Assembly: GCA_007693965.1 (NCBI GenBank)
Contig: RECQ01000048.1
Coordinates: 1 to 64,000 of the forward strand
Direction of reading: 5' to 3'
Source: Phycisphaeraceae bacterium
GTDB taxonomy: Bacteria; Planctomycetota; Phycisphaerae; Phycisphaerales; UBA1924
DNA: 64,000 nucleotides
This document shows positions 45,797 to 61,316 of the stretch, piece by piece. Numbering within the stretch: position 1 is the stretch's first letter; each line of letters begins with the position of its first letter. Position numbers and translations under genes: made by a program. The notes beneath the pieces are model-generated. The model was not told where the DNA came from. It searched no databases and saw only the letters and a program-made list of their open reading frames with translations.

Positions 45797-45805
45797 GCGG
45801 CTCCC

Positions 45806-47026
45806 TCAGCCCCCCATGACCGTGCCCATGGTGAAGATCGGGAGTAGCAGCGCGATGGCGATGCCGCCGATCAACACACCCATGAAGGTGATGACGAGCG
45901 GCTCGATCATCTGGGTGCCGTTGCGGATTGCCTCGTCGAGTTCGTGCTCGGTGACCTGGGCGACACGTTCGAGAACCTCAGGGAGGCGCCCCGTGCGTTC
46001 GCCCGCCGCGATCATCTGACCGACGGAGGCGGGGACGAGTGTGCTTTCGAGTAGGACCTCAGCGATGTTGCGACCCTGGGTCATGGCCTCGTCCATTTCG
46101 TCCCAGAGTTTGGCCCAGTGGGCGTTGGTGGTGACGCCCCGCACGATGCCGACCGCTTCGGGCAGCGTGACGCCGGCGGCGAGAAGTGTGCCGAGCGTGC
46201 GCGTGGCGCGGCTGAGATAGAAGTTGGTGAAGATGGGTCCGATGATAGGCGATCGGATCTTGAGCCAATCGATCCAGGAACGGCCACGCGGCGTGCGTCG
46301 GAAGAGGTATCCACCGACGCCGAGCGAGATGGCCGCGGCGACGAGGGCGATCCAGTTTCCCGTGAGGAAATCACTGATGGACATAATGATGCGCGTGGGC
46401 GTGGGCAGCGTCGCCGATCGCGACTCGTAGATGCGCGCGAAGCGCGGCAGCACCCAGCCCACAAGAAAGCCCGTGACCGCGATGGCCATGGACATCATCA
46501 TCATGGGGTACGTGAGGGCGCCCTTGATCTGCTTGACGGTTCTGCGCTCGGCGCCGAGGTAGTCCGAGACGCGTCCGAGCATCTTGCCGAGTGATCCGGT
46601 GGCTTCGGAAGCGCGGATGAGGCTGAGCATGAGCGTGGGGAAGACGCGGGGAAACTCGGAGAGGGATGCGGAGAAGGAGACGCCGCTGTGGACGCGATCC
46701 GCCACGATCTCGACGATGCGGCGCACGCCGCCGCCCTTCGTCTGGCTGAGGAAGGCGTTGAGCGCCTCGGAGAGCGGCACGCCGGTGTCGAGCATGACCG
46801 AGAGCTGGGAGCTGAATGCGATGACGTCTTCGCGCTTCACGCTCTTGGAGAGTTGGCGCGTGCGGACCTTCTCAGTGTCGACGAGCGTCGAGCTGATGTC
46901 GAGATCGGTGACGGTCAGCCCTTCCGCTCGCAATTTGCGAAAGGCGTCCGATTCGCTCAGAGCTTCGACGACGCCATTCTGGCTTCGGCCCTTGCTGTCA
47001 CGCGCCTTGTAGCTGTATTTGGTCAT
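45806..47026 (-). CDS. Type IV pilus/type II secretion platform protein (PilC/GspF)
   Basis: A 406-residue inner-membrane platform protein that couples the assembly ATPase to pilus or pseudopilus growth. Two GspF repeats (about 70-190 and 270-395) each end in membrane helices (MMMMSMAIAVTGFLVGWVLP, FLTGNWIALVAAAISLGVGGYLF and a final LVITFMGVLIGGIAIALLLP). The N-terminus YSYKARDSKGRSQNGVVEA is typical of PilC. It is the last gene of the 15.5-kb minus-strand unit, 40 bp after the ATPase gene. Confidence 0.9.
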   Translation of the reverse strand: MTKYSYKARDSKGRSQNGVVEALSESDAFRKLRAEGLTVTDLDISSTLVDTEKVRTRQLSKSVKREDVIAFSSQLSVMLDTGVPLSEALNAFLSQTKGGGVRRIVEIVADRVHSGVSFSASLSEFPRVFPTLMLSLIRASEATGSLGKMLGRVSDYLGAERRTVKQIKGALTYPMMMMSMAIAVTGFLVGWVLPRFARIYESRSATLPTPTRIIMSISDFLTGNWIALVAAAISLGVGGYLFRRTPRGRSWIDWLKIRSPIIGPIFTNFYLSRATRTLGTLLAAGVTLPEAVGIVRGVTTNAHWAKLWDEMDEAMTQGRNIAEVLLESTLVPASVGQMIAAGERTGRLPEVLERVAQVTEHELDEAIRNGTQMIEPLVITFMGVLIGGIAIALLLPIFTMGTVMGG

Positions 47027-47066
47027 GGCTGAATTCGAGACGTACGCCCCGCCCCCCGCTCACTGA

Positions 47067-48794
47067 TCACATGGTGCAGACCCGCATCACCTCTTCGACC
47101 GTGGTGAGCCCCATTTTCGCCTTGATGAATCCGTCGTCGCGGAGCGTTCTGTAGCCGGTCTTGGCGGCGATCTCGCGCAGTTCGTGCAGGTTGAGGCCGC
47201 GGCCGACGCCCTCGAGCATCTGATCGTTGGGAAGCAGAAGCTCGAAGATGCCGAGGCGTCCTGCGTACCCCTTTCCCAGGCAGCGCGAGCAGCCGGCGCC
47301 GCGGAAGAGCTCCTTGCACTCGCCCGCCGCAGCTTCAATCGTCTCGACGGTGCGATCGTCGGGCTGGTAAAACTCCTTGCAGTGCGGGCAGATCTTGCGG
47401 ACGAGCCGTTGGGCGAGAATGCCCCGCAACACTGCGGCGACGAGGTATGGCTCGATGCCCATGTTCACCAGCCGCGTGACCGCAGAGACGGAGTCGTTGG
47501 TGTGCAGCGTGCTGAAGACGACGTGGCCGGTGAGGGCGGCCTGTGTGGCGATGGTCGCGGTCTCGGCGTCACGGATCTCGCCCACCATGAGGATGTCAGG
47601 ATCCTGACGCAGCAGGGAGCGCAGCGCCGAACTGAAGGTGAAGCCGGTCTTGTCATTGACCTGGAACTGATTAATGCCGGGGATGTTGACCTCGACCGGG
47701 TTCTCGACCGTCGAGATGTTGAGCTCATCCGTGGCGAGCTGGCTGAGGACGCTGTAGAGCGTGGTCGACTTGCCGGATCCGGTGGGGCCAGTGACGAGGA
47801 CCACGCCATTGGATGATGTGACGACGCGCTTCCATTCCTCGAGGATGTCGGGTCCGAAGCCGATCTTCTCCATGGGAACGATGGCGGAGCGGTTGTCAAT
47901 GATGCGGATGACGACCTTCTCGCCGAACTTGCCGGGGAGGGTCGAGATGCGCAGGTCGATGGGCCGGCCATCGATCATGACATGGATGTCGCCGTCCTGG
48001 GGCAGGCGGCGCTCGGAGATATCCATGTGGGCCATGATCTTGATGCGCGACACGATGGCGGGGTGCATCTGGTGCGGCGGGTTGAGCTTCTGCACCAGCC
48101 GCCCGTCCACGCGGTAGCGGGCCCGGCAGGAATGGTCCTCGGGCTCGATGTGAATGTCGGACGCCCGATCCTGCACTGCCTGATAGATCAGGAAGTTCAC
48201 GAGCTTGACGACGGGCGACTGGCCGGCCATCTGCTCGAGATTCCCGAGATCGGTCATCTCCTGCTCAACGATGCTGAAGTCGCTGACTTCGACGTCTTCG
48301 TAGATCTCATCGATCACGAAGACGTTGGCGCTTGGCAGGTAGGCCTGGAGTGTGGTGCGGATGTCGCCCGGTATGGCCGCGACGACCTGCACCGTGCAGC
48401 CGCTGAGGCGCTCGATCTCCTCGACGAGGAAGAGATTGGCTGGTTCGGAGACGGCGACTGTGAGTGAGTTGTCGATCTTGAAGAGCGGGAGCACGCAATG
48501 GCTCTCGATGAAGTCGCGAGGAAGGACCTCGGTGATGCGGGGGTCGGCCATACGCGCATTGAGTCGCGCGAAGGGAACGCCGTAGCACTCCGCGAGGGAC
48601 TCCATGACCTGCTCCTGGGAGGCGAAGTTGAGCTCGATGAGCACTTCGCCGAGGAGCTTGTGATGGCCGCGGCGCTTCTGCTCTTCGAGGGCTTCCTTGA
48701 GCTGGGCCATCGAGATGACGCCACGCTCGACGAGCGTGTCGCCGAGCTGAATGCGGGCCGTCTTGTGCTGTGAGCCATGCTGCTGGGGGCTCAT
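47067..48794 (-). CDS. Type IV pilus/type II secretion assembly ATPase (PilB/GspE)
   Basis: A 575-residue hexameric ATPase. N-terminal MshEN/GspE-N domain about 15-150 (LGDTLVERGVISMAQLKEAL), N2 domain, then catalytic domain: Walker A GPTGSGKST (336-344), Asp box STVENPVE, Walker B ILMVGEIRD (401-409), His box TGHVVFSTLHTND (422-434) and a tetracysteine zinc motif CPHC (469-472) with CSRC (502-505). The MshEN type of N-terminus often binds cyclic di-GMP, fitting the HD-GYP gene in the same unit. Its start overlaps the STAS gene stop by 4 bases (ATGA). Confidence 0.92.
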   Translation of the reverse strand: MSPQQHGSQHKTARIQLGDTLVERGVISMAQLKEALEEQKRRGHHKLLGEVLIELNFASQEQVMESLAECYGVPFARLNARMADPRITEVLPRDFIESHCVLPLFKIDNSLTVAVSEPANLFLVEEIERLSGCTVQVVAAIPGDIRTTLQAYLPSANVFVIDEIYEDVEVSDFSIVEQEMTDLGNLEQMAGQSPVVKLVNFLIYQAVQDRASDIHIEPEDHSCRARYRVDGRLVQKLNPPHQMHPAIVSRIKIMAHMDISERRLPQDGDIHVMIDGRPIDLRISTLPGKFGEKVVIRIIDNRSAIVPMEKIGFGPDILEEWKRVVTSSNGVVLVTGPTGSGKSTTLYSVLSQLATDELNISTVENPVEVNIPGINQFQVNDKTGFTFSSALRSLLRQDPDILMVGEIRDAETATIATQAALTGHVVFSTLHTNDSVSAVTRLVNMGIEPYLVAAVLRGILAQRLVRKICPHCKEFYQPDDRTVETIEAAAGECKELFRGAGCSRCLGKGYAGRLGIFELLLPNDQMLEGVGRGLNLHELREIAAKTGYRTLRDDGFIKAKMGLTTVEEVMRVCTM

Positions 48795-49126
48795 CGGACG
48801 CTCCTCACCGCCGATTCGATGGTCGGGTGGGCCTCGAACGACTTTTCCAGTCTCGTCAGGCGCAGGATTTTTTCGACGTTGTCGTCAGGGTTGATCAGCC
48901 GGAGCTGGCCTCCCTTGTCTCCAAGCTGCTCGCGCAGCCTCAGCCAGCTTTCGAGCCCCGCGGAGTCGACGAACTCGAGGTGTTCACAGTTGAGGAGCAC
49001 GTGGCGGGCGCCGTCGTCCAGACGATCGGATACGACGCGTCGGAAGTTGTCGACATCATCGTCGGTGTAATCACCGGAGAGGGTCAGCACGCAGATGTGC
49101 TCATATTCCTGATAGCTCAGTTTCAT
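48791..49126 (-). CDS. STAS domain anti-sigma factor antagonist-like protein
   Basis: A 111-residue single STAS domain of the SpoIIAA type. NCEHLEFVDSAGLESW holds the conserved phosphorylatable Ser in D-S-A-G (about 55-58). These proteins bind a serine kinase/anti-sigma partner unless phosphorylated. Here the gene sits between an HD-GYP gene (1-base overlap of start and stop) and the assembly ATPase gene (ATGA overlap). So it is likely to act as a switch for the pilus/secretion machine. No partner kinase RsbW is in the window; the histidine kinase and FHA-PP2C are the only candidates seen. Confidence 0.88.
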   Translation of the reverse strand: MKLSYQEYEHICVLTLSGDYTDDDVDNFRRVVSDRLDDGARHVLLNCEHLEFVDSAGLESWLRLREQLGDKGGQLRLINPDDNVEKILRLTRLEKSFEAHPTIESAVRSVR

Positions 49127-50787
49127 CAGGCGGCCCTCCCATGCGACGAGGCCTGACGCTCACGATCGACGTGGCGCGCCACCAGCGCGTCGTAGGCTGA
49201 GAAGTCGAGCTTGACGAACCGCGGCGCCAGCTCCGGATCAAACTGAGTGCCGGCGCAACGCTCGATCTCGGCCAGCACCTGCGCACGCGGCATGGCCGAT
49301 CGGTAGGTTCGCGTCGAGCTCATGGCGTCGAAGGAGTCGGCGAGGCCGATGATGCGGGCGTAGAGCGGCGTATTTTTCGCGGCGAGCCTGTGCGGGTAGC
49401 CCTGGCCATCCCATCGCTCGTGGTGATGCAGGACGGCGGGGAGGACGTCCGCGAGCTGGGGGATGTCCTTGAGAATGCGATGCCCGATCTCGGGATGAGC
49501 CTTGATGAGCACGAACTCCTCGTCGGTCAGCCTTCCGGGCTTGCAGAGGACCGTCTCAGGCACGCCGATCTTGCCGACATCGTGCACAAGGCCCGCGATG
49601 CGGATGCGCTCGACTTCCGTCTCATCGAAGCCCATGTCGCGGGCGAGCATCATGGCCAGGTGGGCGACGCGCTCTGAATGGCCGCAGGTGTAACGATCCT
49701 TGGCGTCGATCGAGGCCGAGAGGGCTTCGAGGGTGCCGAGGAACATGGACTGCTGGTCATCGTAGAGGGCGGCGTTCTGGAGAAGAATGTTCAGATACTG
49801 GCCGGCGCCGTCGAGGAGCTTGATGTCAACGCTGCTGATTTCATCGTCGACGCCCTGCTTTTCGCCGGCGATGAGGGCGCCGATCAGGCGGCCATCGCGC
49901 ATCATCGGGTGCACGAGCACTGTGGAGGCGCTGTCGCCCGCCTTCGATGCATTATGCAGCTTGTCGAGATTGACGACCATGGCCTGGGGGCCATCGATGC
50001 GCGCCATGAGCTCATCAACGGTGTCCAGGAATTCGTTCTCCGGACAGCATTTTTCACCGACGATCACCGTCTGCCCCGCGACGTGGCGGGCGTCGCGATC
50101 CTCGTCGGCGAAGCGAGCGGCGATCCATTTGAATGAGAGCGTGGCGTGCAGTTCCTCGCACAGGAGGTGGACGAACTTTGCGGGCTGGGCCAGCTCGTTC
50201 ATCGACTGGCCCAGCTTGTAGAGCAGGTTCAGCTCTTCGTATGCTTCGGTGAGCTGGCGGCTGAAGCCGGAGAGCGTCTCCTCATTGACGGCCAGTTCGA
50301 GGCGGTCGCCGAGCGTCCACGTCAGCATGCGCGCGGTCCTGAGCGCGGCTTCGGCGTCGTAGACTGCGATGTGGCGCAGTGCCTCGCGGGCGGCGTCGAG
50401 GTCGAGGGACGCTCCCTGACAGACGGAGACGAAATGCTCCTCGTCGAGGGCGGCCGCCGACAATGCAAACGCCACGATGTAGCCGACGCGTCGGCGGCGC
50501 CGGGTTTCGATCACGGGAATGGCCCAACAGCCCGGAATGATCGCCTCGGGCTCGGGGTGATCGGAGTCGATCCAGTTCGAAGCGAGTTTCCTCAGTCGCG
50601 CTGTGATGAATCCGCTCTGGATCCAGTCGCGCGCAATGGCGCCGCCGGCGATTCCGCTCTGCTCTGCCTCGCGAATGATGCGTCCTTCGACGTCGCATCT
50701 GAGCGTGGGCAGACCAAGAGCGCAGCATCGCTCACGCAGCACGGTGCGTGCGCAGGTGAGGCCATCCTGGACGGTCCTGACGCTCAT
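49126..50787 (-). CDS. GAF/HD-GYP domain response protein (cyclic di-GMP phosphodiesterase-like)
   Basis: A 553-residue cytoplasmic protein. An N-terminal domain (about 1-170) of unknown type precedes a GAF-like domain (about 185-345), then an HD-GYP domain (about 355-525): HSERVAHLAM, HDVGKIGVPE, HPEIGHRIL, HHHERWDGQGYP (the GYP motif) and LADSFDAMSSTRTYR. The HD and GYP residues needed for cyclic di-GMP hydrolysis are present. Start overlaps the response-regulator stop (ATGA). In the pilus unit it could set messenger level near the PilB/GspE ATPase. Confidence 0.88.
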   Translation of the reverse strand: MSVRTVQDGLTCARTVLRERCCALGLPTLRCDVEGRIIREAEQSGIAGGAIARDWIQSGFITARLRKLASNWIDSDHPEPEAIIPGCWAIPVIETRRRRRVGYIVAFALSAAALDEEHFVSVCQGASLDLDAAREALRHIAVYDAEAALRTARMLTWTLGDRLELAVNEETLSGFSRQLTEAYEELNLLYKLGQSMNELAQPAKFVHLLCEELHATLSFKWIAARFADEDRDARHVAGQTVIVGEKCCPENEFLDTVDELMARIDGPQAMVVNLDKLHNASKAGDSASTVLVHPMMRDGRLIGALIAGEKQGVDDEISSVDIKLLDGAGQYLNILLQNAALYDDQQSMFLGTLEALSASIDAKDRYTCGHSERVAHLAMMLARDMGFDETEVERIRIAGLVHDVGKIGVPETVLCKPGRLTDEEFVLIKAHPEIGHRILKDIPQLADVLPAVLHHHERWDGQGYPHRLAAKNTPLYARIIGLADSFDAMSSTRTYRSAMPRAQVLAEIERCAGTQFDPELAPRFVKLDFSAYDALVARHVDRERQASSHGRAA

Positions 50788-51188
50788 GCCGCTTCCCGCG
50801 CCTTTCCATCGCCCGCTGACTCCCCAAGGATTTCGGCGATCATGTCCAACAGCTCACGAGGGCTGAAGGGCTTGCTGAGCACGTGGCGGATGCTGGTGCG
50901 TTGCAGATCGTCAGCGCCGAGGGCGTACCCCCGGGCTGTGAGAAGCAGGGCCGGAATCGAGGCTGTGGCCTTGTTTCGCTTGAGGCGCGCGCACATTTCG
51001 ACGCCCGTCATGTAGGGCATCTGCAGATCTGTGATGATCAGGTCCGGCAGGCTCTGGCAGGCCAGCTCGTACCCCTCTTCGCCGTCACCCGCCGTGAGCA
51101 CCTCGTACCCGGCGTTGCCGAGCTTGAGCGAGACAACGTGCAGGATGTGGGATTCATCATCGACGACAAGGACTGTTTTGCTCATCAT
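50784..51188 (-). CDS. Single-domain response regulator (CheY-like)
   Basis: A 134-residue receiver. VVDDESHIL carries the acidic pair (D10, D11), PDLIITDLQMPYMTG the phospho-acceptor Asp (about 56), LLLTARG the switch Thr and the LSKPFSPRELL Lys near the end (106-116). No output domain, so it acts through protein contact. It is 17 bp downstream of the sensor kinase gene, its likely partner, and overlaps the HD-GYP start. Confidence 0.92.
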   Translation of the reverse strand: MMSKTVLVVDDESHILHVVSLKLGNAGYEVLTAGDGEEGYELACQSLPDLIITDLQMPYMTGVEMCARLKRNKATASIPALLLTARGYALGADDLQRTSIRHVLSKPFSPRELLDMIAEILGESAGDGKAREAA

Positions 51189-51205
51189 GGAGCCTCTCCC
51201 CTCTC

Positions 51206-52660
51206 TTACGCGCCATCCGCGTCATACGGGATGTTGAATCGGAACTTGCTGCCCATCCCCAGCTCACTGGTGACGCTGATGTGGCCGTTGTGAACCGTCT
51301 CGACGATGTGCTTCACCAGCGACAGGCCGAGTCCGGTGCCCTTGGCGACGCGCTTGTAGTTCTCAATGCGGTAGAACTTGTCGAACACCTTGTCGAGCGA
51401 ATCGGGAGGGATGCCGAGACCCGTGTCGGCGACGGTGACCATGACGGAGCCGGTCGCGTCGTCGTTCTCGACGGCGACGGTGACCCGTCCCCCTTCCGGC
51501 GTGTATTTCACGGCGTTGCTCAGGAGGTTCAGCAGCACCTGGTGCACCATGTCCGCATCCGCCATCGCCGTGCAGGCGAGGGGGCTTGACTTCAGGTGAA
51601 CGCTGATCTCCTTCAGGTTCGCCTGCGGCTGGATGACCTCGATGGCCTTCTTCGAGGCCGAGATGAAGTCCACCTCCGTCCGCTCGATCTTCACGATGCC
51701 CGCCTCGATCCGGCTGATGTTCAGCATGTTGTCGATGAGGCGGTTGAGGCGATCCGCCTCGCTCTTGATGATCTGGTAGAACTCCTGGCGGCTCTCCTCG
51801 TCCGCGGCCTCACCGTCGAGCAATAGCTCGATGTAGGCGTTGATCGAACTGAGCGGTGTGCGAAGCTCGTGGGAGACCTTGGAGACGAAATCGGTCTTCA
51901 TCTGGCTGATCTCGCGTTCCCGGGTCACATCGCGCAGGATCGTGACCACGCCGCCGACGCCGCGGCGGGAGTCGGGCAGGCACGTGAGCGTGACGTCGTA
52001 GCACATGCCCTGGCTCTCAGGATCATCAGAGGGGATCGACGAGGGGATGGCGTGATCGGCGTGCTTGCGATGTCCCGGTGTGGCCAGGTCTCGCTCGTCC
52101 TGGATGAGCCGGCGCAGTGCGTCATCGACGATGATGTCGTCGATCGACTTGTGCATGGCTTCGGCGGGTCGAAAGCCGAGCAACTCGCCGGCCCGGTCGT
52201 TGGCCATCTTGAGTTCGTTGAAGGCGTCGGTGACGAGGACCGCATCGTGAAGGCTGTGCAGGATGGCCTCGATGTGCTGGCGCTCGGCCTCGCTCACCTG
52301 GTGGCGGATTTCAACCTCGCGCAGGTTGGACTCGGCCTCCTCGGCTCGCGCGGAAAGTGAATCCATTGCCTGCTGGATCGCGGTTCGCAGATCTTGCAGT
52401 TCGGAGCCGGTCTCGATGAGCTCGGTGCGCCTGCTCTCGGCCATCGTCGTCAGTTCATTGATGAGAAGATCCGTCTGGTGGTCGTGGCGATAACCAATTG
52501 GAAATACCACAGCCGCAACCACGGCCATCGTCAGGGCCGCGACGCCAATGATGAGCGTCGCGCCGCTCAGGCCGAGCGCCGGAACCAGGGCCGCCGCGCC
52601 GGCGCTGCATACGCCTGCGGCGACAGCCGCCATCAGACTGAACTTCCGACCGATTTTCAC
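51206..52660 (-). CDS. Membrane sensor histidine kinase with PAS domain
   Basis: A 484-residue kinase. Two N-terminal helices (about 8-30 and 34-56), a coiled-coil (about 70-130), a PAS domain (about 130-245, SLHDAVLVTDAFNELKMAN), HisKA with phospho-His in VSHELRTPLSSI and a HATPase_c domain with NLLSNAVKY (N box), DTGLGIP (G1) and GTGLGLSL (G2). Complete for autophosphorylation. The absence of a large periplasmic loop suggests sensing in the cytoplasm or membrane. Followed directly by a CheY-like regulator. Confidence 0.92.
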   Translation of the reverse strand: MKIGRKFSLMAAVAAGVCSAGAAALVPALGLSGATLIIGVAALTMAVVAAVVFPIGYRHDHQTDLLINELTTMAESRRTELIETGSELQDLRTAIQQAMDSLSARAEEAESNLREVEIRHQVSEAERQHIEAILHSLHDAVLVTDAFNELKMANDRAGELLGFRPAEAMHKSIDDIIVDDALRRLIQDERDLATPGHRKHADHAIPSSIPSDDPESQGMCYDVTLTCLPDSRRGVGGVVTILRDVTREREISQMKTDFVSKVSHELRTPLSSINAYIELLLDGEAADEESRQEFYQIIKSEADRLNRLIDNMLNISRIEAGIVKIERTEVDFISASKKAIEVIQPQANLKEISVHLKSSPLACTAMADADMVHQVLLNLLSNAVKYTPEGGRVTVAVENDDATGSVMVTVADTGLGIPPDSLDKVFDKFYRIENYKRVAKGTGLGLSLVKHIVETVHNGHISVTSELGMGSKFRFNIPYDADGA

Positions 52661-52704
52661 CGACCGACTCCCTCTCTTCCAAAGATAGTGTCCGGGTCCG
52701 TCAC

Positions 52705-53934
52705 TCAGTCGTCCTGCTGAACCGCCGCCAGCATGCGCCGCGCCTGATCGTGCGTCGGGTCGATCGCGAGCGCGTCAATGAAGCTTGACGCAGCCTCGTT
52801 CCGACGTCCGAGTTCATCGAGCACGACGCCTCGGAGCATGGCCGGGCGCGGGTCGGCGCCCGCGAGGCTTACGGCCTTGTTCAAGCTGGCGAGCGCGCTG
52901 TTGAGATCGCCGGCGCGCCGGCTCCACATGGCCATCATGAGCGGGCCTTCATGTCGATTCGGCGCGATGGCCGTCAGCCGGGCTGCGACCAGACGAACCC
53001 GGTTCATGTCCCCGATATGCATGGCGACTTCACCCAGATCGATCCATGCTTCGATGTCGGAGGCGCCGGCGCTGTCGCTCGTCAGGGCGAGCAGAATCGA
53101 GCGGGCTTCGACCGGGCGGTCGAGATGAATCAGGCAGCGGGCCTGGGCGTGCTTGAGGTCGCGCCGATCCTTGAAATCCTTGTGTTTCATGAGCCTGCGC
53201 AGGCTGTACTCGGCCTCGGTGAATCGCCCGGAAGCGATCTGGGCGAGCGCCAGGTCTTCGTGCAGGGCCAGTTCGTCCGGCGCGAGCAGGCGAGCCTCGC
53301 CGAAGAGCGTGACGGCCCTTTCGTAGTCGCCCCTCATCATCGCGATGTGGCCCATCGTCTGGCGGACGCCTGCGTTGTGCTGATGATTCGAACGCCTGCT
53401 CTCCAGAAGCTCCATCGCCTTGTCAAGCTGACCGAGTTCGATGTGCATCTCCGCGGCGGCGATGATGAACTGGGCGTTGGATGGATCAAGATTGGCGGCG
53501 GCGAGATAGCGCTCCATGGCCTGGTCATGTTCACTGAATCGCTCGTGAGCGATGCCGAGGTAGTAATGCGCCTCGACGAAGCCAGGATCGAGCTCCAGCG
53601 CTTCGCGATAGGAAACCACGGCGGCTTCAAGCTGCCCCAGCTCCATCATGATCCGGCCGCGGAGCGTGTGGCTCTTGGGGACAGCTCTGTTGAGATCGAG
53701 CGATTCATCGACGTTATTGAGCGCCTTGGAGAGATCGCCCGCGAGAAACTGCTGACGAGCCATGTCCCAGGATGTGGCGGCCTTGATCGTCGCCATGCGT
53801 TCGTTGGCGCGTTCGATGTGCTCAGTGGTGTACCGCCCGTGTCCGCTCGCGCAGCCGGCAAGGCCGGTTGCGAGGCCCGCGGCGAGCGTCATGGTCGCCG
53901 CGGCGAGGATGCGCTTGTTGATCGTCCGTCTCAT
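52705..53934 (-). CDS. TPR lipoprotein, candidate pilotin
   Basis: A 409-residue lipoprotein. Signal peptide with the lipobox LAGC (about 25-28), so it should be attached to a membrane facing outward or periplasm. TPRs follow (for example AVVSYREALELDPGFVEAHYYLGIAHER, AMERYLAAANLDPSNAQFI and ASSFIDALAIDPTHDQARRML). It lies 42 bp after the secretin gene in the pilus unit. PilF/PilW and related pilotins are TPR lipoproteins that target or assemble the secretin, so that role is inferred from structure and position. Confidence 0.8.
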   Translation of the reverse strand: MRRTINKRILAAATMTLAAGLATGLAGCASGHGRYTTEHIERANERMATIKAATSWDMARQQFLAGDLSKALNNVDESLDLNRAVPKSHTLRGRIMMELGQLEAAVVSYREALELDPGFVEAHYYLGIAHERFSEHDQAMERYLAAANLDPSNAQFIIAAAEMHIELGQLDKAMELLESRRSNHQHNAGVRQTMGHIAMMRGDYERAVTLFGEARLLAPDELALHEDLALAQIASGRFTEAEYSLRRLMKHKDFKDRRDLKHAQARCLIHLDRPVEARSILLALTSDSAGASDIEAWIDLGEVAMHIGDMNRVRLVAARLTAIAPNRHEGPLMMAMWSRRAGDLNSALASLNKAVSLAGADPRPAMLRGVVLDELGRRNEAASSFIDALAIDPTHDQARRMLAAVQQDD

Positions 53935-53976: not shown

Positions 53977-56451
53977 TCACTTGTCGAAATCTTCATCCTC
54001 GACGTGGGTCACGGCGGGAACGCCGGGGGACTGGGTCGAGCCGGTGAAGATCGGCTGCAGGTTGCGCCACACGCCGGTGAACGTCAGGTTCATCGGACGC
54101 ATGTCGCCAGTCTTCATCTCGGGCGTCTCGGGCTCCCGCATCACGAGGACGCCGGGATCGCCCATCCAGAAGGGAATCGCCCAGTCGTCGACTTTCGAGG
54201 GCGCCGGCGTCTGATCCGTCAGCGTGGGGAACTCGGCCATGTCGCTGAAGGGATCGTCAACGAAGCCCTTCTGCTCCATGTTCCAGGGCTCATCGCCCTC
54301 GGGCCAGACCGCGATGGGGCTCAAGGGGCCGTCGACACCCTCCGGCTCGGGGCCGAAGAGCTCCTCGCCCGTGAGCGAGGGTGTGATGGTGACGGTCAAC
54401 TGCAGATCGTCGGGATTGGACGAACGGCGCGTGGGCCCCTGCTCGGACTTGATCGCGACCTTGCGGCCGTCGGTCTTCCGGGTCCGTGCAGAGTCGCCGG
54501 CGTCCGTCTTCACGACCTGGTCATCGGTGAATGTGGCCGTCGGAGGCCTGGACCGGCGACCTTCGAGCACGGGTTGCTGCTTGGCGGCCTCGGCGATCAT
54601 CATGCGCTCGTCAATCTCGTCGAGCGGAACGGCGACGAGGTGCTGACCAAGCGGATGCGTCATCAGGCCGACCGGCTCGATGCGGTCATACGAGTCATCG
54701 ATCTCGTCATCAAGGATGCGCTGGAGCAGGCTCCGGTTGGGCCAGATCTCGCGCTTGTTCATCAGTCGTTCGCGGAGCTCGATGGCTTCGGGCTGCGCGG
54801 GATTGAGCGAGAGTGAGCGGCGGACCTTCCAGAACGCCTCGCCGCTGTTGCCCTCGAGCGCCAGGCGCTCGGCTTCGACGTTGAGCATTGCGGTCATGCG
54901 GTCGCGGCTCCAGGGGAGCAGGCCGCTGCGAACGCCGGTGCGGACGCGCTCGGCGTGGGCGAGGGCCCGATCGCCCTGATCGAGAAGCATCTGATCGTTC
55001 ACGATGGTGGGCGTGATCAGGAAGATGATCTCGGAGCGGGCGGTCATGTCATCGTGGCCGCGGAAGGCGGCGCCGATGATCGGAATGTCGCCGATGAAGG
55101 GCACCTGGCGACGGCCGAGGGTGGTCGTCTCCTTGAAGAGGCCGCCCAGCACGATGGTGGAGCCGTCGCGGACAAGCACGTTGGTGGTGAGGCTCTGGGT
55201 GATCTCGTCAGGAATCGAGACATTGGATCCTGAAACCTCGGTGGCCTCGCGGATGACGGCCTCGGAGACCGAGGGGCTCAGCTCCATGCGGATCATGCCG
55301 TCGTTGGAGATGAAGGGACGGAAGGAGAGCTGGGTGCCCGTGTCGAGGAACTCGACGGTCTGCGTCGTCGAGGTCTCGGTGGAGGTTGTGTTGAGGTAAC
55401 CGACCCGCTGACCGACCAGCACGCGAGCGGGCTGGCGGTTGAGCGTCAGGATCTTGGGGCGCGAGAGGATGGTGACGTCGGTCACTTCATCAAGCAGCCG
55501 CATGAAGACGCTGAAGTCGTTGCGGATGATGCCGGCCTTGAAGGTCGAGGGGCCGCTGGTGTTGCCCGGCCGGGAGACGGCGGCCTGCCCACGGTTGTCG
55601 GGCGGGCTGAAACCGCCGTCGGCGCCGGAGCCGCCGGCGATGAGGCCGTTGGCCGCGCCGAGCGGGCCGCCGATGTCCATGAAGTCGGTGAAGTTGACAT
55701 CGCCGATGATGGAGAAGTCGACGCCGAAGGCGTTGGCCTCGTTGAGCTGCGTCTGGAGGATGGTCGCCTCGACCAGCACCTGTGAAGGACGGGTGTCGAG
55801 GCTCGCGATGAGCTTCTCGATCTCCTCGACGTGCTCGGGGTAGTCAAAGATCACGACGGTGGACGAGAGCGCGTACGACTCGTCGCCGATGGGCGACTTG
55901 TCGGTTATGGTGAAGGCGCCTGGATCGCCGTTGGTCTTGATCTGGCCGACTTCGGAGAGAAGCGGCGAGACAAACTCGGCCGCGTCGTTGGAGTTGAGAT
56001 AGTTCAGCCGGATGACCTTATGGACCGGCTTGCGGGTGGCGCGCTCGATTTCGTCGATCTCCTGAAGCGTGTAGACAAAGATGAAGTTGCCGCGCTCGAT
56101 GTAGCCATATCCATTGACGTGCAGGATGGCGTCCAGCGCCTCATAGAAGGTGACGTTGTACAGGTTCGCGCTGACGGTGGCGGAGACGTCCTTGCTGACA
56201 ACGATGTTCCGCTGACTTTGCAACGAGAGCATCTGGAGGACGTTGGCCAGGTCTTCGTCCTGCACGTGCAGATCGACCGTGAGATATTCTGAGACGGTGA
56301 TCTCGGCGTCGGACGCTTTCTTCGTGTCGAAGGGGTTGCGATTCTGACCGAGCGCCTGGCCTGCCCCGGCCGCCGCGATCAGCCAGGCCGCACAGATGGA
56401 ACCAGCGCGCCGAACGATAACACGGCGACCATAGCTGTTTTCGGTGGACAT
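53977..56451 (-). CDS. Secretin (GspD/PilQ family) with long C-terminal extension
   Basis: An 824-residue outer-membrane channel. Signal peptide about 1-35 (AWLIAAAGAGQALGQ), N-domains with VDLHVQDEDLANVLQMLSLQ and a secretin domain about 215-490 (LVEATILQTQLNEANAFGVDF, VLVRDGSTIVLGGLFKE, VPFIGDIPIIGAAF and EIIFLITPTIV). Beyond it is a 330-residue extension (about 495-824), part of it TPR-like (GEAFWKVRRSLSLNPAQPEAI) and then low-complexity acidic. That tail is unusual in secretins. The PilP-like gene lies 54 bp upstream. Confidence 0.9.
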   Translation of the reverse strand: MSTENSYGRRVIVRRAGSICAAWLIAAAGAGQALGQNRNPFDTKKASDAEITVSEYLTVDLHVQDEDLANVLQMLSLQSQRNIVVSKDVSATVSANLYNVTFYEALDAILHVNGYGYIERGNFIFVYTLQEIDEIERATRKPVHKVIRLNYLNSNDAAEFVSPLLSEVGQIKTNGDPGAFTITDKSPIGDESYALSSTVVIFDYPEHVEEIEKLIASLDTRPSQVLVEATILQTQLNEANAFGVDFSIIGDVNFTDFMDIGGPLGAANGLIAGGSGADGGFSPPDNRGQAAVSRPGNTSGPSTFKAGIIRNDFSVFMRLLDEVTDVTILSRPKILTLNRQPARVLVGQRVGYLNTTSTETSTTQTVEFLDTGTQLSFRPFISNDGMIRMELSPSVSEAVIREATEVSGSNVSIPDEITQSLTTNVLVRDGSTIVLGGLFKETTTLGRRQVPFIGDIPIIGAAFRGHDDMTARSEIIFLITPTIVNDQMLLDQGDRALAHAERVRTGVRSGLLPWSRDRMTAMLNVEAERLALEGNSGEAFWKVRRSLSLNPAQPEAIELRERLMNKREIWPNRSLLQRILDDEIDDSYDRIEPVGLMTHPLGQHLVAVPLDEIDERMMIAEAAKQQPVLEGRRSRPPTATFTDDQVVKTDAGDSARTRKTDGRKVAIKSEQGPTRRSSNPDDLQLTVTITPSLTGEELFGPEPEGVDGPLSPIAVWPEGDEPWNMEQKGFVDDPFSDMAEFPTLTDQTPAPSKVDDWAIPFWMGDPGVLVMREPETPEMKTGDMRPMNLTFTGVWRNLQPIFTGSTQSPGVPAVTHVEDEDFDK

Positions 56452-56505
56452 CCTGCTGCTCCTCCACTCGCCGCGTTGCGGCGAAAGACTCCCGGATCAC
56501 TTCAG

Positions 56506-57126
56506 TTACGGCGTCGCAAGCGTCAGCGCGACGCGAATTCCATCTTGTTCCACAACGACTCGGCTCCGATGCACTTCGATCAGCGTGAAGCCCTCGATCT
56601 GCTGACCGATGCGGAGCACCTGGGCGGCGCCACGTCTCGATCCGTGCGTTTCAATCACCGCTGTCGGGCTGGAGCCAAGCATGATGCTTCTCACTCGTAA
56701 ATTCTTCGCCTGCTCACGGATGCGCTGCTCATGCCGCGCCGCGAGCGCGGCCTCATCTTCCTGTTCAATGTCGTCGTTTCTGATGGGGGACTTTGCAGGC
56801 GATGGCTCGGACACTTCCGTCTGGGAGGGCAGGGGAAAATATCGCTCGCTCGGGAGGAAAAGATTTCTCTCCAGCGGGGTGAGCGACGGGAGCTCGATGC
56901 GGTTTGCGCTCGCGAGTTTCCGGTCCATCGCCGATCCTGAGCCGATATCCGTCTGCTGCGCCGCGCCGGCCTGTCTCGGACCCGGCGCCTGATTTTCGGA
57001 CGATTTCGACAGGACCCCAGCGCGCACCCACATCACCAGCGCCACGACAACAAGGCCTCCCAGGATGGACGCCTTCTTCGGATCCGCCGTGACCATCACC
57101 CAGTATTCCATCAGGCGCTTCTTCAC
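56506..57126 (-). CDS. Periplasmic alignment protein (PilP/GspC-like)
   Basis: A 206-residue protein with one N-terminal membrane helix (about 18-38) and a flexible Ser/Pro-rich region. A small C-terminal domain (about 140-204) with VRSIMLGSSPTAVIETHG, VLRIGQQIEGFTLIEVHRSRVVVEQDG is the beta-fold seen in GspC/PilP HR domains. It should connect the inner-membrane PilMNO-like ring to the secretin. Start and the PilO stop overlap (ATGA). Confidence 0.7.
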   Translation of the reverse strand: MKKRLMEYWVMVTADPKKASILGGLVVVALVMWVRAGVLSKSSENQAPGPRQAGAAQQTDIGSGSAMDRKLASANRIELPSLTPLERNLFLPSERYFPLPSQTEVSEPSPAKSPIRNDDIEQEDEAALAARHEQRIREQAKNLRVRSIMLGSSPTAVIETHGSRRGAAQVLRIGQQIEGFTLIEVHRSRVVVEQDGIRVALTLATP

Positions 57127-57713
57127 TGATCCTCCTCCCCTGTCGCGTCGGCCAACGCCTGCGTCATCTCTTCATCCGCCCCAAAGAACAGATCAAGCGT
57201 CATCTCGACGCGCACGCCGCCGAGCTGGGTCTTGTCGTCCCGGCCGCGATCCGTCTCGATCCGCAGTCGCTGCACCCTCACCAGGCGCTGCAGCGACTCG
57301 ATCCATTGAATCGCGTCGTGCACTCTGGTGAAAGGTCCGCGCAGGGTGACGGACATCGGCATGGACCACGCAAGATCGAGCTCCAACTCACGACCGGTGT
57401 TGATCTCGCGGTCGAAGAGCTGCAGTTCATCGAGTCGCTCGCTCAGGTTTCTCATGAAGGATGCGAAATCGCTGTCCTGCGGAATCGGCTTGGTCTGCTG
57501 ACGGGCCATCTTCCTGGCCAGGGCGAGGGACTCCTCGAGTCTGCGGATCGCGGCGGCGCCGTCGTCGGCGTCGGCCACGCGAGCGGCGAGCGTCAGTCGC
57601 TCATCATTCAGCCGAGCCAGGGAGCGATGCTTCGGGCCGATGATCAGACCGAGCGACGCAAGAGTGATCGCGGCCAACGAAACCGAGAGCCAGAGTCTCA
57701 TCTTGGACTTCAT
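57123..57713 (-). CDS. PilO/GspM-like assembly protein
   Basis: A 196-residue protein with one N-terminal membrane helix (about 6-26), a coiled-coil (about 30-90) and a ferredoxin-like end (SMPMSVTLRGPFTRVHDAIQWIESLQRLVRVQRLRI). This is the PilO fold, which pairs with PilN. Overlaps PilN and PilP-like genes by ATGA on either side. Confidence 0.8.
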   Translation of the reverse strand: MKSKMRLWLSVSLAAITLASLGLIIGPKHRSLARLNDERLTLAARVADADDGAAAIRRLEESLALARKMARQQTKPIPQDSDFASFMRNLSERLDELQLFDREINTGRELELDLAWSMPMSVTLRGPFTRVHDAIQWIESLQRLVRVQRLRIETDRGRDDKTQLGGVRVEMTLDLFFGADEEMTQALADATGEEDQ

Positions 57714-58363
57714 CGCAGCTCTCCTTCCGCACTGAGGTCGACGAAGGTGTATCGCTGTGAAGCGTCGATCTCGCAGGAAAGGCCGAATTCGCGAGCTGAA
57801 TTCCCGCGCAATTCGGTCTGTCGCGTGTAATCGACCGCGATTCGCCTGAACAGAGGATGTCCCTCGAGCCCGGCGACGAAGGAGGCGACGTGCATGTCGT
57901 CCGGCGCGTGGCCCTTGATTTCGATGACCATGCGGCGACCAGCCTCGGGCCGTTCATCCGTCTCGGCGCCGCGGGTGCGTCCGGCGACGCGCTCCTGCCT
58001 GGGGGTTACATTCAAGGATGTCAGCGACACCGAATCCGGCGTCGCCTGGCCGAGCGCGGTGACGACATCGCCCATGCGAACCGGCCACGCGAGCAGATCA
58101 TGGCGACGCATCCCTGCTTCGAGTTGTTCGATCTGCTTCTCCAGCGCCGCGGCCAGCTCGCGCTGGCCTGCGTCGAGCTGCACCTGGCTGCGCAGCGCGC
58201 GCACCTCGCCCAGGCGGCTGCGCTCCATGACGGTCAACAGCGATGTGTACACAGCCACCACAGCGATGAGGGCGACGTAGGCGGCGGACCACTTGCGGAC
58301 CTCGCTCCGCTGGCCGAGCTTGCGTCGGCAGTTCTCCGGCATCAGGTCGATGAGCTGGCTCAC
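57710..58363 (-). CDS. PilN/GspL-like assembly protein
   Basis: A 217-residue inner-membrane protein. A short N-terminal cytoplasmic peptide (SQLIDLMPENCRRKL, the PilM-binding INLLP-like motif) precedes a helix (about 25-45), a coiled-coil and a C-terminal beta-alpha domain. GTG 58363 overlaps the PilM stop (GTGA), so I do not accept the longer frame that runs back to 58699, which is a shadow of PilM. Confidence 0.85.
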   Translation of the reverse strand: MSQLIDLMPENCRRKLGQRSEVRKWSAAYVALIAVVAVYTSLLTVMERSRLGEVRALRSQVQLDAGQRELAAALEKQIEQLEAGMRRHDLLAWPVRMGDVVTALGQATPDSVSLTSLNVTPRQERVAGRTRGAETDERPEAGRRMVIEIKGHAPDDMHVASFVAGLEGHPLFRRIAVDYTRQTELRGNSAREFGLSCEIDASQRYTFVDLSAEGELR

Positions 58364-59556
58364 GCGGCTTCCCTCCTCGGCGTGCGCGTCGTCTGCCCGT
58401 CGCGGCGCTGCTGTGTCGCAGGGCCGGCGGCGTCGGGCGCGATGTCGGCGGTCTGTGAGCTGTCGCCGCGCAGGCTCAGGCCCGCCGCGACGGACCATTC
58501 CGCCAGGTCGCCGCGACGATCCATCGCCAGCGATGCGCAGGAAGTGTCGATGCCTTCCAGCGGACGTCCGATTTCCGTGTCGGCGTGCAGCGCTTCCCCG
58601 ATGGCCTCCTTGAGGCCGGGCTCGCGGGCGTGGCCGCCGACGATCAGCGCGCGCTCCGGCGGGCTGCCGCGGAAGGTGACCATGTAGTAGCGGAGGCACA
58701 ACGCAACCTCACCGGCCATCTCCTCGAGGAGCGGACGGACGGCGTCGTAGATCGCGCGATCGGCGCGCGAGTCGTGCTTTCTGGCGCCATCCTGCTCCAC
58801 GTTGAGCATACGCTGGCGACGGAGTTCGGCGATGGTCTCAGGCTTCATATCGAGCTGTTCCGCCGCGGCCTCGGTGAGTCGTGCGCCGCCCATCGGCAGC
58901 GACTTGTAGAAGACCACATCGCAGCCGCGCAGGATCACCACGCCGGTTGTGCGCGCCCCGACGTCCACCACCATCCGCACCACGTTCGAATCGCTGGCGC
59001 GACGGTAAGCCCGGCTGAAGGTGCGTCCGCATGCGAGGAAACCCGGCTCGACCGCCAGCGGACGCAATCCAAGCTCGCACACATCATCGACGAGCCGCTC
59101 GAGCTCCGGCGCTTTGGCGCCGACGACGATCAGCTCATCGCGGAGATCATCGCCCTGGTGGATCTCGCCGGCTCGAACCCAGCCGATCTCGGCGGTCTCT
59201 CCGGCATCGAAGCCGAGCCGTTCCGAGCCTTCGAGCCGGATGGCTCGGTCGGTCTCCTCCCGGGGCATCTGCGGCTGGCGCACGGAGCGGACCCGCAGCA
59301 GCGAGTCGTCAGCCGCCACAAAGCACTGCCTGCCGACAAAACCCGCACCGATGATCTTGCGCTTCAAGCCTTCGAAGAGGCTCTGTCTTCGCTCTTCAAC
59401 ATCCATCTCGTCGGCCTTGACGCCAAGGTCGACCCTGGCCGCTGCCACGACCGTATAGGCGCCTTTCACCTTCCGGAGCTGCAGCAGCCGTGCGCCGCCT
59501 CCTCCGATGTCAACGCCAATGGGCAGATGTCCGGTTTGCAAATATTCTCTTAACAC
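58360..59556 (-). CDS. PilM-like actin-fold assembly protein
   Basis: A 398-residue cytoplasmic ATPase-fold protein. LPIGVDIGGGGARLLQL (phosphate 1), MVVDVGARTTGVVILRG (phosphate 2) and ALIVGGHAREPGLKEAIGEAL (adenosine) are the actin/FtsA-like nucleotide motifs. It recruits PilN at the inner face. First gene of the contiguous PilM-N-O-P run; 75 bp separate it from the pseudopilin gene upstream. Ends in a hydrophilic, low-complexity tail. Confidence 0.88.
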   Translation of the reverse strand: MLREYLQTGHLPIGVDIGGGGARLLQLRKVKGAYTVVAAARVDLGVKADEMDVEERRQSLFEGLKRKIIGAGFVGRQCFVAADDSLLRVRSVRQPQMPREETDRAIRLEGSERLGFDAGETAEIGWVRAGEIHQGDDLRDELIVVGAKAPELERLVDDVCELGLRPLAVEPGFLACGRTFSRAYRRASDSNVVRMVVDVGARTTGVVILRGCDVVFYKSLPMGGARLTEAAAEQLDMKPETIAELRRQRMLNVEQDGARKHDSRADRAIYDAVRPLLEEMAGEVALCLRYYMVTFRGSPPERALIVGGHAREPGLKEAIGEALHADTEIGRPLEGIDTSCASLAMDRRGDLAEWSVAAGLSLRGDSSQTADIAPDAAGPATQQRRDGQTTRTPRREAA

Positions 59557-59631
59557 GCCTCCACGCCCTCATTTCTGTGCGTCCGCCGCCGCAGCGATCC
59601 GAAACGCGTGCCTCCTCCATCAACGAATCCA

Positions 59632-60261
59632 TCACTCGGTGCGCGCCACTGTCACACGCCCGGTGTACGCCTCCACGGTCACGAGGAAGCGGCGGTCTTC
59701 ACCGACGATCTCCACCGTGCCGCTCATGCCCGGGTCATCGCTGTCGATCGCGGCGACGGGTCCACCGAGTTCATCAAAGATCAGTCGCTCGTCGCCGTTG
59801 AATGCAGGATTCGCGATCCGCCCTCCGCCGTATTTCGTGTCGTTGAAATCCCGACTGAATGGTCTGGTCGAGTCGGACGGGTCATCCATCCACATGCTGT
59901 TCAGATCGAGCACCGTGACTCCCGTCGGGACTGCGTAGACGGTGTAGCCGTTTCCCTCGACGATCTCCCATGTTGAGGAAGCGGCGTTCCATTGCGCCAC
60001 CTGGCCGAAGACCATGATGCGGCGCGACTGGTACGCCATCGCATCCGCCTGCATGAAAGTCATGTCCGATACGAGCGTACGAACCGTGGCCTGAATACGA
60101 AGCACGCTCGAAGAGCTCATTGATGGGATGACCAGCGCGCCGGCGATACCCAGCAGCGTCACGATGAGCAGAAGCTCGATGAGCGTGTAAGCGCGCCGGG
60201 CGCCCGAGCGACCGACGTTCCTCCACCGCCACAACAGATTGTCGGCGGATTGATTTGTCAC
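59632..60261 (-). CDS. Pseudopilin (GspH/FimT-like)
   Basis: A 209-residue prepilin-like protein. Prepilin signal RRAYTLIELLLIVTLLGIAGALVIPSM (about 22-48); here the residue before the cleavage site is Ala and the first residue Tyr instead of Gly and Phe, but Glu+5 is kept. A GspH/FimT-like beta-domain follows. The leader is 23 residues. Starts 7 bases after the upstream small protein gene. Probable minor pilin in the initiation complex at the machine's tip. Confidence 0.8.
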   Translation of the reverse strand: MTNQSADNLLWRWRNVGRSGARRAYTLIELLLIVTLLGIAGALVIPSMSSSSVLRIQATVRTLVSDMTFMQADAMAYQSRRIMVFGQVAQWNAASSTWEIVEGNGYTVYAVPTGVTVLDLNSMWMDDPSDSTRPFSRDFNDTKYGGGRIANPAFNGDERLIFDELGGPVAAIDSDDPGMSGTVEIVGEDRRFLVTVEAYTGRVTVARTE

Positions 60262-60267
60262 GTTGGT

Positions 60268-60660
60268 TCAGTCTCCATCGCTCTGCGGCCTGGGCATGCG
60301 CATCACGTTCACATCGAACGGCGGGCGTCCCAGTCGGTCCGAAAGCGTGTCAATCTTGTCGTTGAGCCGCTTCAATTCGGCGATCATCGCCTGGCGCTGA
60401 TCAGCGGGGTTGATGATCCCGCCGGTCTGCCGTGTGGCGCTCCGCGATTGGGCGTCCGCCTGGCTGACGCCGGGCAGGCCCACCGTGGACTGCGCCAGCA
60501 GCGTCGCCAACAGAACTGCGATCGCGGTGAGCGCCCCGTTGCGGTACGCGTTCGATCCGGCGCCGGTCGCGTTCTTCTGTCGCATTGCGCGGACTCCATG
60601 GCTTGTGAACCGGCGTGGTCGGCTTCGATGCGGACCAGCGACGCCGGATTCGGACTTCAT
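60268..60660 (-). CDS. Small membrane protein of the pilus unit
   Basis: A 130-residue protein of unknown family. A basic tail precedes one hydrophobic segment (about 43-65) and a short periplasmic part with a coiled-coil-like helix (MIAELKRLNDKIDTLSDRL). ATG 60660 overlaps the upstream stop (ATGA); ATG 60585, preceded by GGAG, is an alternative that gives a 105-residue protein. Position between two pilus-unit genes suggests an assembly role. Confidence 0.55.
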   Translation of the reverse strand: MKSESGVAGPHRSRPRRFTSHGVRAMRQKNATGAGSNAYRNGALTAIAVLLATLLAQSTVGLPGVSQADAQSRSATRQTGGIINPADQRQAMIAELKRLNDKIDTLSDRLGRPPFDVNVMRMPRPQSDGD

Positions 60661-61316
60661 CAGTGGCGCGTCGACCCCGCCCGATGGACAGCGGGCAGAG
60701 AGACGGTCGCAGCGCCGACATCGGGCTCATCGGGCGTCGGCCCGTCCCAGTGAAGAACGAGCGTGAGCGTCGCCATTCCACCGGCTTCGCGCCCCCGCTC
60801 AATCGCTACCGCTGTTATGTCCGTCGCAATGACACGTCCGCGCACGCCGGGACGCAATCGCCAGTTCTCGGGCATTGACTCGTCGACCAGGGCATCGGCG
60901 CTTAAACTCGGACCAGGAGCGTCTTCATCCTCGAGGTCGCTCGTGTACGCGGTGAGCGTCCTCAGCAGCGGGCTGTGCAGCAGCACAAGGAGTTCATCCT
61001 CGTTCACGACCCCCCGCTCACGATCATCGCTGTGCCAGAGCGTCACAGCTGCGCCGCGTGAGCCGCGTCCTTCCCGGACCGTGATCAGCGCGTCGCATGA
61101 CGCCAGCAGCGCATGCAGGCCGTGCAGGATCTCCAGACGAACCTCACTCAGGCCGTTGTGGGTGATCGCCGCCGGCGCCGTGGCCTGCATCGCCACCAGC
61201 GCCCTGGGAGCGATGATCGCCCCCGCCGTGGTCACGCCCGCGGCGGTGAGGCCCAGCGAGAGCATTTCCGCGCGGGAGAGCGACATCCACCATTTCATCA
61301 GCGCAGTGACACCCAT
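60660..61316 (-). CDS. Membrane protein of the pilus unit, GspJ-like or novel
   Basis: A 218-residue protein. An N-terminal helix (about 18-40) is followed by a domain with HNGLSEVRLEILHGLHALLASCDALITV, AAVTLWHSDDRERGVVNEDELLVLLHS and a beta-rich second half. The WHSDDRERGVVNEDELLVLLHSP segment resembles minor-pilin (GspJ) domains, but no prepilin cleavage motif is present. ATG 61316 was chosen since the longer frame to 61433 overlaps non-coding sequence. First gene of the 15.5-kb minus-strand unit. Confidence 0.55.
   Translation of the reverse strand: MGVTALMKWWMSLSRAEMLSLGLTAAGVTTAGAIIAPRALVAMQATAPAAITHNGLSEVRLEILHGLHALLASCDALITVREGRGSRGAAVTLWHSDDRERGVVNEDELLVLLHSPLLRTLTAYTSDLEDEDAPGPSLSADALVDESMPENWRLRPGVRGRVIATDITAVAIERGREAGGMATLTLVLHWDGPTPDEPDVGAATVSLPAVHRAGSTRH

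Follow-up and report, generated by a model that had tools for sequence, protein, structure and literature searches.

A kinase, receiver, HD-GYP and STAS cassette beside the assembly ATPase gene of a pilus-type machine in a Phycisphaeraceae bacterium and its relatives: a candidate regulatory module

The stretch of DNA analysed here, called the window below, comprises bases 1-64000 of contig 14 (RECQ01000048.1) of the 3.48-Mb draft genome of a Phycisphaeraceae bacterium (GCA_007693965.1). The system in question is an operon-like run of fifteen genes, all on the minus strand and lying head to tail from 61316 down to 45806, which encodes the components of a pilus-type filament machine together with a sensor kinase, a receiver, an HD-GYP protein and a STAS protein. 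Frames and stops were verified for all of them. Inspection of starts and stops revealed overlaps of 1-4 nucleotides (nt) at seven of the 14 junctions and a largest gap of 75 nt. In gene order the spacings are -1, +6, +75, -4, -4, -4, +54, +42, +44, +17, -4, -1, -4 and +40 nt, where the -4 junction between PilM and PilN assumes the GTG at 58363 as the start of PilN. A preliminary description, made from the letters alone, had listed fifteen end-to-end minus-strand genes with many overlaps of 1-4 bases and had named their products; the arrangement was borne out, and the names were supported by Pfam and NCBIfam domain searches.

The run begins with up1 (60660..61316), a small membrane protein with one hydrophobic segment by eye that occupies the same position in part of the order, and up2 (60268..60660), a small secreted or membrane-anchored protein; Pfam gave no match for either, nor for residues 1-214 of the HD-GYP protein. 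A pseudopilin with GspH-like N-terminus follows (59632..60261; Pfam N_methyl E 0.01 and NCBIfam GspH E 5e-5, both below cut-off), and then PilM (58360..59556; PF11104, PilM_2, E 2.8e-18, with TIGR01175 below cut-off), PilN (57710..58363; PF05137 E 1.1e-8), which starts at the GTG and overlaps PilM by 4 nt, PilO (57123..57713; PF04350 E 4.3e-9) and a PilP/GspC-like periplasmic protein (56506..57126; T2SSC E 6e-4, below cut-off). The secretin PilQ (53977..56451) matches PF00263 at E 8.4e-42 and the PilQ model TIGR02515 at 219.6 bits, which is below its cut-off. The machine part is interrupted after a TPR lipoprotein (52705..53934), assigned by TPR families of Pfam and a LAGC lipobox seen by eye, and resumes with the assembly ATPase PilB (47067..48794; PF00437 E 3e-130, PF05157 E 1.9e-18), which carries an MshEN-type N-terminal domain, and the inner-membrane platform PilC/GspF (45806..47026; PF00482 E 2.7e-55). 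A PilB/GspE ATPase, a PilC/GspF platform, a secretin and a PilM-N-O-P set, PilP being recognised weakly, are all present. The ATPase reached neither of the curated NCBIfam equivalogs (PilB 587.2 bits with 675.65 needed, GspE 585.2 with 630.25 needed), and it is called PilB-like because of its gene context and its top Protein Data Bank (PDB) match, 5zfr.

The signalling genes fill the interval between the lipoprotein and PilB. They encode a sensor histidine kinase (51206..52660) of PAS-HisKA-HATPase architecture with N-terminal hydrophobic segments by eye and a phospho-acceptor His264, a single-domain receiver (50784..51188; PF00072 E 2.7e-22) with Asp54 and Lys106, a candidate phosphodiesterase of cyclic dimeric GMP (c-di-GMP) of the HD-GYP type (49126..50787; PF13487 E 1.2e-38, weak GAF), and a single-domain STAS protein (48791..49126; PF01740 E 1.4e-18) with an Asp54-Ser55 pair. 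The STAS gene stands directly before PilB and overlaps its start.

The conservation of this arrangement was followed through the secretin, which was sought in 60 relatives; 60 secretin-centred loci were fetched from 56 of them (loci of G031, G048, G054 and G058 were left out, and G007, G024, G040 and G051 are represented twice). PilQ, kinase, receiver, HD-GYP, STAS, PilB and PilC were found at one locus in 21 of the 60 relatives, and at profile level PilM, PilN, PilO and PilP lie upstream in all 21 such loci. Three further loci (G025, G030, G050) fit the cassette layout but are interrupted by contig ends, while the G049 locus is without kinase and receiver and the G057 locus without kinase and HD-GYP. 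Most of the other relatives, chiefly of the same family, hold a related PilQ, mostly with the TPR gene, at a cassette-free locus. A coincidence confined to one genome was considered and rejected, as the layout is kept in many relatives, and the linkage of signalling genes to the machine, which had been set beforehand as the test, holds. The secretin was rejected as the linked partner, since many members of the same family have a PilQ of 53-65% identity at a cassette-free locus. STAS remains with PilB where PilQ, mostly with the TPR gene, sits elsewhere. We also note that in six loci of the same family (L041, L044, L046, L047, L049, L051) PilQ-TPR is preceded by several pseudopilins at a locus of its own, away from PilM-O and PilB.

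Loci fetched through the HD-GYP protein extended the picture. In 20 of these 38 loci a receiver-HD-GYP pair has a different PilM/N/O/P-pilin set as its neighbour; the full set was not detected at every one of them. In the layout termed type B the pair adjoins a kinase-STAS-PilB-PilC-PilM-N-O-P-pilins run (L139, L233), and in a variant of it the pair is divergent (L113, L221). The receiver and the HD-GYP gene may sit on a neighbouring or a distant transcript; STAS, PilB and PilC are usually together, as a rule with the kinase. The complete chain of sensor, receiver, messenger enzyme and STAS proposed in the preliminary description is found in the window but is too strict as a general statement, the slot before STAS holding HD-GYP, GGDEF, both or nothing depending on the lineage. 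Similarly, the layout is unusual against model pil and gsp loci, as had been remarked, but it is the rule for this PilB clade.

A phylum-wide test was made on 294 genomes, with STAS places limited to E<=1e-15 and PilB places to E<=1e-195. The STAS profile found 88 places in 74 genomes and the PilB profile 91 places in 72. STAS lies directly upstream on the same strand in 52 of the 54 PilB places scoring at least 746 bits, with 6-251 nt between profile ends, and the only top PilBs lacking it are those of G171 and G266. Among the 37 PilB places below 746 bits, STAS is directly upstream in two. These lower places serve as an internal control: 18 of the 37, including a copy on contig C59 of the genome studied here, share a genome with a top PilB. 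The 746-bit line was drawn by eye ahead of the count; moving it to 792 (the next score being 746) leaves 51 of 53 linked, with the same two exceptions. Viewed from the other side, a listed PilB adjoins 54 of the 88 STAS places, and in the 40 STAS places that were fetched a PilB-profile match adjoins 37 (not L222, L223 and L247).

Trees of PilB, PilC, kinase, receiver and STAS were computed from hand-chosen loci with 51-54 tips each. All five recovered the layout groups A, B and C+D with 0-2 misplaced tips. Four trees keep type A whole, and the kinase tree places two A tips elsewhere. Type B is joined by L178 in four trees, and the receiver tree separates two B tips from it. C+D is recovered whole in every tree; type C by itself is whole in two, and in the other three it is joined by L237, a type-D tip. 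Support at the main splits ranges from 0.4 to 1.0, and the STAS and receiver trees are therefore weaker witnesses than those of PilB and PilC. Two single contigs from metagenome-assembled genomes, L143 (3.6 kb, labelled Kuenenia) and L174, were excluded from claims on range. The latter, on a contig labelled Deltaproteobacteria, shows kinase-receiver-HD-GYP-PilB-PilC with no STAS match and the motif-II Gln in PilB, which may mean either that the cassette occurs beyond this phylum or that the bin carries a wrong label. The near-complete STAS-PilB linkage and the largely congruent trees agree with the earlier proposal that the signalling genes belong with the machine. They also bear on the suggestion that an ordinary two-component/STAS regulator of transcription or stress is merely co-expressed, sharing the operon by chance. 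Such a regulator would accord with the single-domain receiver and with the RsbW-like kinases (two over cut-off) and SpoIIE-like phosphatases (six) encoded elsewhere in the genome; however, the linkage outlasts class and phylum distances, rearrangement and duplication, and we regard chance co-expression as very improbable.

The slot before STAS is the variable part of the module. Among the 54 genomes with a top PilB, the HD-GYP gene stands directly before STAS in 29 of the 30 belonging to the class of the window, the exception being G057, and adjoins STAS in none of the 24 others. In the family f26 the slot is occupied by a membrane-GAF protein whose GGEEF motif is intact (L238, L241, L251), identified as GGDEF by Pfam at E 2.8e-43 (L238) and 3.6e-45 (L251). 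Ten of the 12 f26 genomes (all but G215 and G233) have a full-length GAF-GGDEF match immediately before STAS; two of the ten (G197, G248) show one internal stop, although the G197 copy is an open frame of 513 residues in L244. A slot GAF-GGDEF was also found in G074, with a degenerate GGATF, and in G089, which keeps HD-GYP too, while L178 has HD-GYP together with a weak GGDEF. It should be mentioned that the automated slot labels omit HD-GYP at L042, L087, L090, L091, L133 and L143, where long stop-to-stop open reading frames exceed the distance window; the locus annotation shows HD-GYP there. Two side observations concern the same region. L178 and L246 have HD-GYP as well as GGDEF in the interval from receiver to STAS, possibly an ancestral state before loss of either, and in L238, L241, L243, L244 and L254 a second PilB-profile match (137-139 bits) between PilB and PilC may be a PilT-like gene.

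The residues expected of a working relay are intact. In linked loci with a letter at the position, the kinase His264 and the receiver Asp54 are each kept in 63 of 63, and the receiver Lys106 in 64 of 64, so that both the phospho-His and the phospho-Asp of a two-component pair are present. The HD-GYP catalytic residues (HD, HHExxDGxGYP and the distal residues) are intact in 53 of 53 linked loci and were also kept in a comparison of 61 orthologues, and phosphodiesterase activity is predicted from them. This protein consists of an N-terminal domain without Pfam match, a long helix, a GAF-like domain and the HD-GYP domain. Its structure model (mean predicted local distance difference test score 84.3, predicted template modelling (TM) score 0.48) places the long helix at 145-198 and in the PDB matches best 4mcw (TM 0.43/0.60), a phosphodiesterase of the HD-GYP type that has a trinuclear metal centre; at a predicted TM score of 0.48 the domain arrangement in the model should not be over-read. 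In STAS, Asp54 is kept in 71 of 71 and Ser55 in 70 of 71 linked loci. Ser55 aligns with the position at which PDB 1th8 has Ser and 1tid has Ala, occupies the phospho-acceptor position of SpoIIAA and SypA, the Ser expected of a partner-switching protein, and by motif equals Ser56 of SypA as described in PMC10120452. The genome has six GGDEF matches, and c-di-GMP is therefore probably made in this organism. Two other genes of the window are recorded here: a 540-residue GGDEF protein (27320-28942, minus strand, with an HDOD-like N-terminal part by eye) about 17 kb from the operon is a possible c-di-GMP source, and a SpoIIE-type phosphatase domain (25291-25869, plus strand, E 1.2e-42) about 20 kb away is a candidate STAS phosphatase.

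The N-terminal domain of PilB was examined against what is known of c-di-GMP binding by such ATPases. The MshEN motif was defined as RLG...Q, occurring twice (PMC5013675), and PMC11731258 allows R, K or L at its first position and describes GSPII-A, with a degenerate second motif, as not binding. The PilB of the window passes the NCBIfam c-di-GMP domain model NF053729 with 57.2 bits (cut-off 38, residues 16-69), which agrees with the domain having been called of the c-di-GMP-binding kind. The model is also passed by all eight further linked PilBs scored at full length, of layout types A to E (50.9-64.3 bits), and was matched by 16 of 19 type-A PilBs in an earlier set; those of L055, L083 and L091, short at the N-terminus in that set, are all over the cut-off at full length. 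Alignment to MshE of Vibrio cholerae pairs Arg9, Gln32, Arg38 and Gln61 with Gln16, Gln39, Leu47 and Cys70. The two 24-residue motifs of the form (R/K/L)LG...Q are accordingly both incomplete: motif I begins with Q and keeps the remainder, and motif II begins LLG and ends with C instead of Q. Gln39 of motif I is kept in 27 of 28 orthologues. The second half-site, as we read these residues, appears weakened or changed, and the domain is not a clear c-di-GMP receptor; the stronger statement that PilB is a proven c-di-GMP receptor was rejected on the loss of the motif-II Gln counterpart. The earlier view, which made c-di-GMP control of the motor plausible from the kind of domain, is right as to that kind, but binding by this PilB has become less certain, as the counterparts of Arg9, Arg38 and Gln61 are lost and the Pfam MshEN match spans residues 71-154 only.

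The operon is flanked by a divergent pfkB-like gene upstream and a convergent recJ-like gene downstream. Consensus promoters in 45500-61700 numbered one against 2.0 expected from shuffles and consensus terminators seven against 7.8, which is no excess of either, and an Rfam scan of 45000-62500 gave no match at gathering threshold. No prepilin peptidase or PilT was seen among the fifteen operon genes, in line with the preliminary description; the one pilin-type product there is the weak pseudopilin, and no major pilin was recognised. A Peptidase_A24 search of the genome gave one match, on contig 40, right at the cut-off, and PilT/PilB-type ATPases, PilT-like ones included, are present on other contigs. 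The same genome holds at least four further PilB/GspE sets (L257-L260): a C73 set has PilB with PilT and pilins, C59 has PilM-N-O-P-PilB with PilT-PilC about 18 kb away, and sets resembling type II secretion systems lie on C59 and C21. Two tRNA-Ser genes (TGA, CGA) lie close together on the minus strand at 25913-26198 of the window.

The explanation that we favour, with slightly better than even confidence, is a type IVa-pilus-like machine with a dedicated in-operon regulatory module that acts on PilB. The membrane kinase would sense an envelope or surface signal and phosphorylate the stand-alone receiver; this phosphotransfer is suggested because the two genes are adjacent and their His and Asp intact. 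The receiver in turn would control a c-di-GMP enzyme working beside the motor, which, judged by its motifs, would lower c-di-GMP here as an HD-GYP phosphodiesterase and raise it in another family as a GGDEF synthase. STAS would serve as adaptor between this input and PilB. It would probably dock on the MshEN-type N-terminal domain of PilB, and the docking may be gated by phosphorylation of Ser55. The output would be whether PilB drives filament assembly or secretion. Kinase, STAS, PilB and PilC usually remain when the rest changes, which favours STAS as motor adaptor and the c-di-GMP enzyme as replaceable input.

Several observations weigh against this explanation. The slot holds neither enzyme in all eight f54 genomes and in two of the 12 f26 genomes, which reading of the loci confirmed for five of the eight and for both f26 cases; in the five f54 loci the receiver adjoins STAS. 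The local c-di-GMP enzyme is therefore not essential, although an HD-GYP protein (profile E<=1e-80) is encoded elsewhere in all eight f54 and all 12 f26 genomes and could act in trans. Pfam found no cognate Ser kinase or PP2C phosphatase for STAS among the fifteen operon genes. Partner switching inside the operon was considered, and no Ser kinase or phosphatase is encoded there; with the RsbW-like kinases and SpoIIE-like phosphatases of the genome, phosphorylation of STAS in trans is possible. None of the 44 type-A PilBs has Gln at position 70, which corresponds to MshE Gln61 (A 25, S 7, C 5, G 5, T 2), and at position 16, the counterpart of Arg9, 28 of the 44 have Gln. Two other PilBs of this genome, on contig C73 and outside any such cassette, pass the c-di-GMP model, which is therefore not specific to the operon; the PilM-N-O-P-linked PilB of C59 and two GspE-like ATPases of the genome gave no match to it at E<=1e-4. 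Finally, 240 of the 294 phylum genomes are without a PilB at or above 746 bits, and the module is therefore patchy or diverged over the phylum.

Part of this evidence would suit a scheme in which kinase and STAS act on PilB by direct contact, the slot enzymes are accessory, and MshEN serves as a docking site that has partly lost its nucleotide. Kinase, STAS, PilB and PilC stay together despite an empty slot (f54 L239, L240, L249, L252 and L253; f26 L237 and L242), and likewise where receiver and HD-GYP are on a nearby transcript (L113, L221, L256) or beyond the sequence that was fetched (L236, L255). Ser55 is almost invariant, as given above, and loss of the Gln61 counterpart extends from all 44 type-A PilBs to eight of nine type-B (Gln in one of nine) and all 14 type-C/D proteins (Gln in none; E 11, D 3), the motif-II Gln being present in L174, L178, L245, L246 and L248. 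In two distant groups, nevertheless, most genomes have a c-di-GMP enzyme in the slot, the motif-I Gln39 is retained and the c-di-GMP domain model is passed. We consider direct contact with accessory enzymes unlikely, though it is the most serious of the competing proposals.

The direction of the signal might also be reversed, with the kinase sensing the assembled machine and setting global c-di-GMP, as in surface sensing or a biofilm switch, so that the motor lies upstream. Co-inheritance is compatible with either direction, and in Pseudomonas aeruginosa the cyclase SadC interacts with PilO and changes activity with surface contact, according to a review (PMC11656802). STAS, however, overlaps the start of PilB and stays with PilB rather than with PilQ-TPR when operons split, which makes this direction improbable.

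Beyond the module acting on PilB, a wider proposition is offered tentatively and with clearly less confidence: an ancient motor governor in part of the phylum, in which kinase, receiver and STAS are locked onto PilB and the exchangeable c-di-GMP enzyme has inverted sign (a destroyer in one class, a maker in another family), so that related motors would answer the signal oppositely. STAS would then be a new kind of PilB cofactor, with a role like that of FimX-PilZ in gammaproteobacteria. At stake is the manner in which c-di-GMP can act on one pilus motor without reaching all its targets in the cell. In these genomes the genes of enzyme, relay and adaptor are kept beside one motor gene in several families, and the sign of the enzyme, as predicted, is swapped in the same slot. 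Two lineages with the same adaptor and motor family and opposite enzymes amount to a natural experiment. The system also offers a candidate PilB cofactor in STAS and may provide a handle on surface life in planctomycetes. In open-access literature, with subscription journals mostly outside its scope, none of the matches listed, judged by title and opening lines of the abstract, described the operon, a partnership of STAS with PilB or the exchange of enzymes. Annotated genomes would probably list these genes under ordinary names. Control of PilB-type motors by c-di-GMP and kinase-phosphodiesterase control of PilB are already known from a 2024 review of PilB and its cofactors (PMC11656802), in the main text of which "STAS" occurs 0 times.

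Four known systems come closest to the operon of the window. Like MshE of the MSHA pilus of Vibrio cholerae, its PilB is an assembly ATPase with an N-terminal MshEN-type domain, but it is without the counterparts of Arg9, Arg38 and Gln61, and the operon adds kinase, receiver, enzyme and STAS. In GSPII-B of PilF from Thermus thermophilus, which binds c-di-GMP at nanomolar affinity according to PMC11731258, the second half-site begins with LLG as in the window; PilF GSPII-B keeps both terminal Gln residues, whereas the window PilB keeps the first only. The PdeK-PdeR-FimX system of Xanthomonas, as outlined in PMC11656802, likewise joins a sensor kinase and a c-di-GMP phosphodiesterase regulator to a PilB machine. 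There the EAL enzyme is the response regulator itself and acts with FimX-PilZ adaptors, while the window has a separate HD-GYP protein and receiver beside STAS. SpoIIAA, RsbV, SypA and BtrV are single-domain STAS proteins with an Asp-Ser phospho-site, as is that of the window, and BtrV-BtrW has a part in the control of a type III secretion system (PMC8256260). The partner-switching systems differ in that the operon of the window is without Ser kinase or PP2C, and in that the proposed target of its STAS protein is the motor ATPase PilB.

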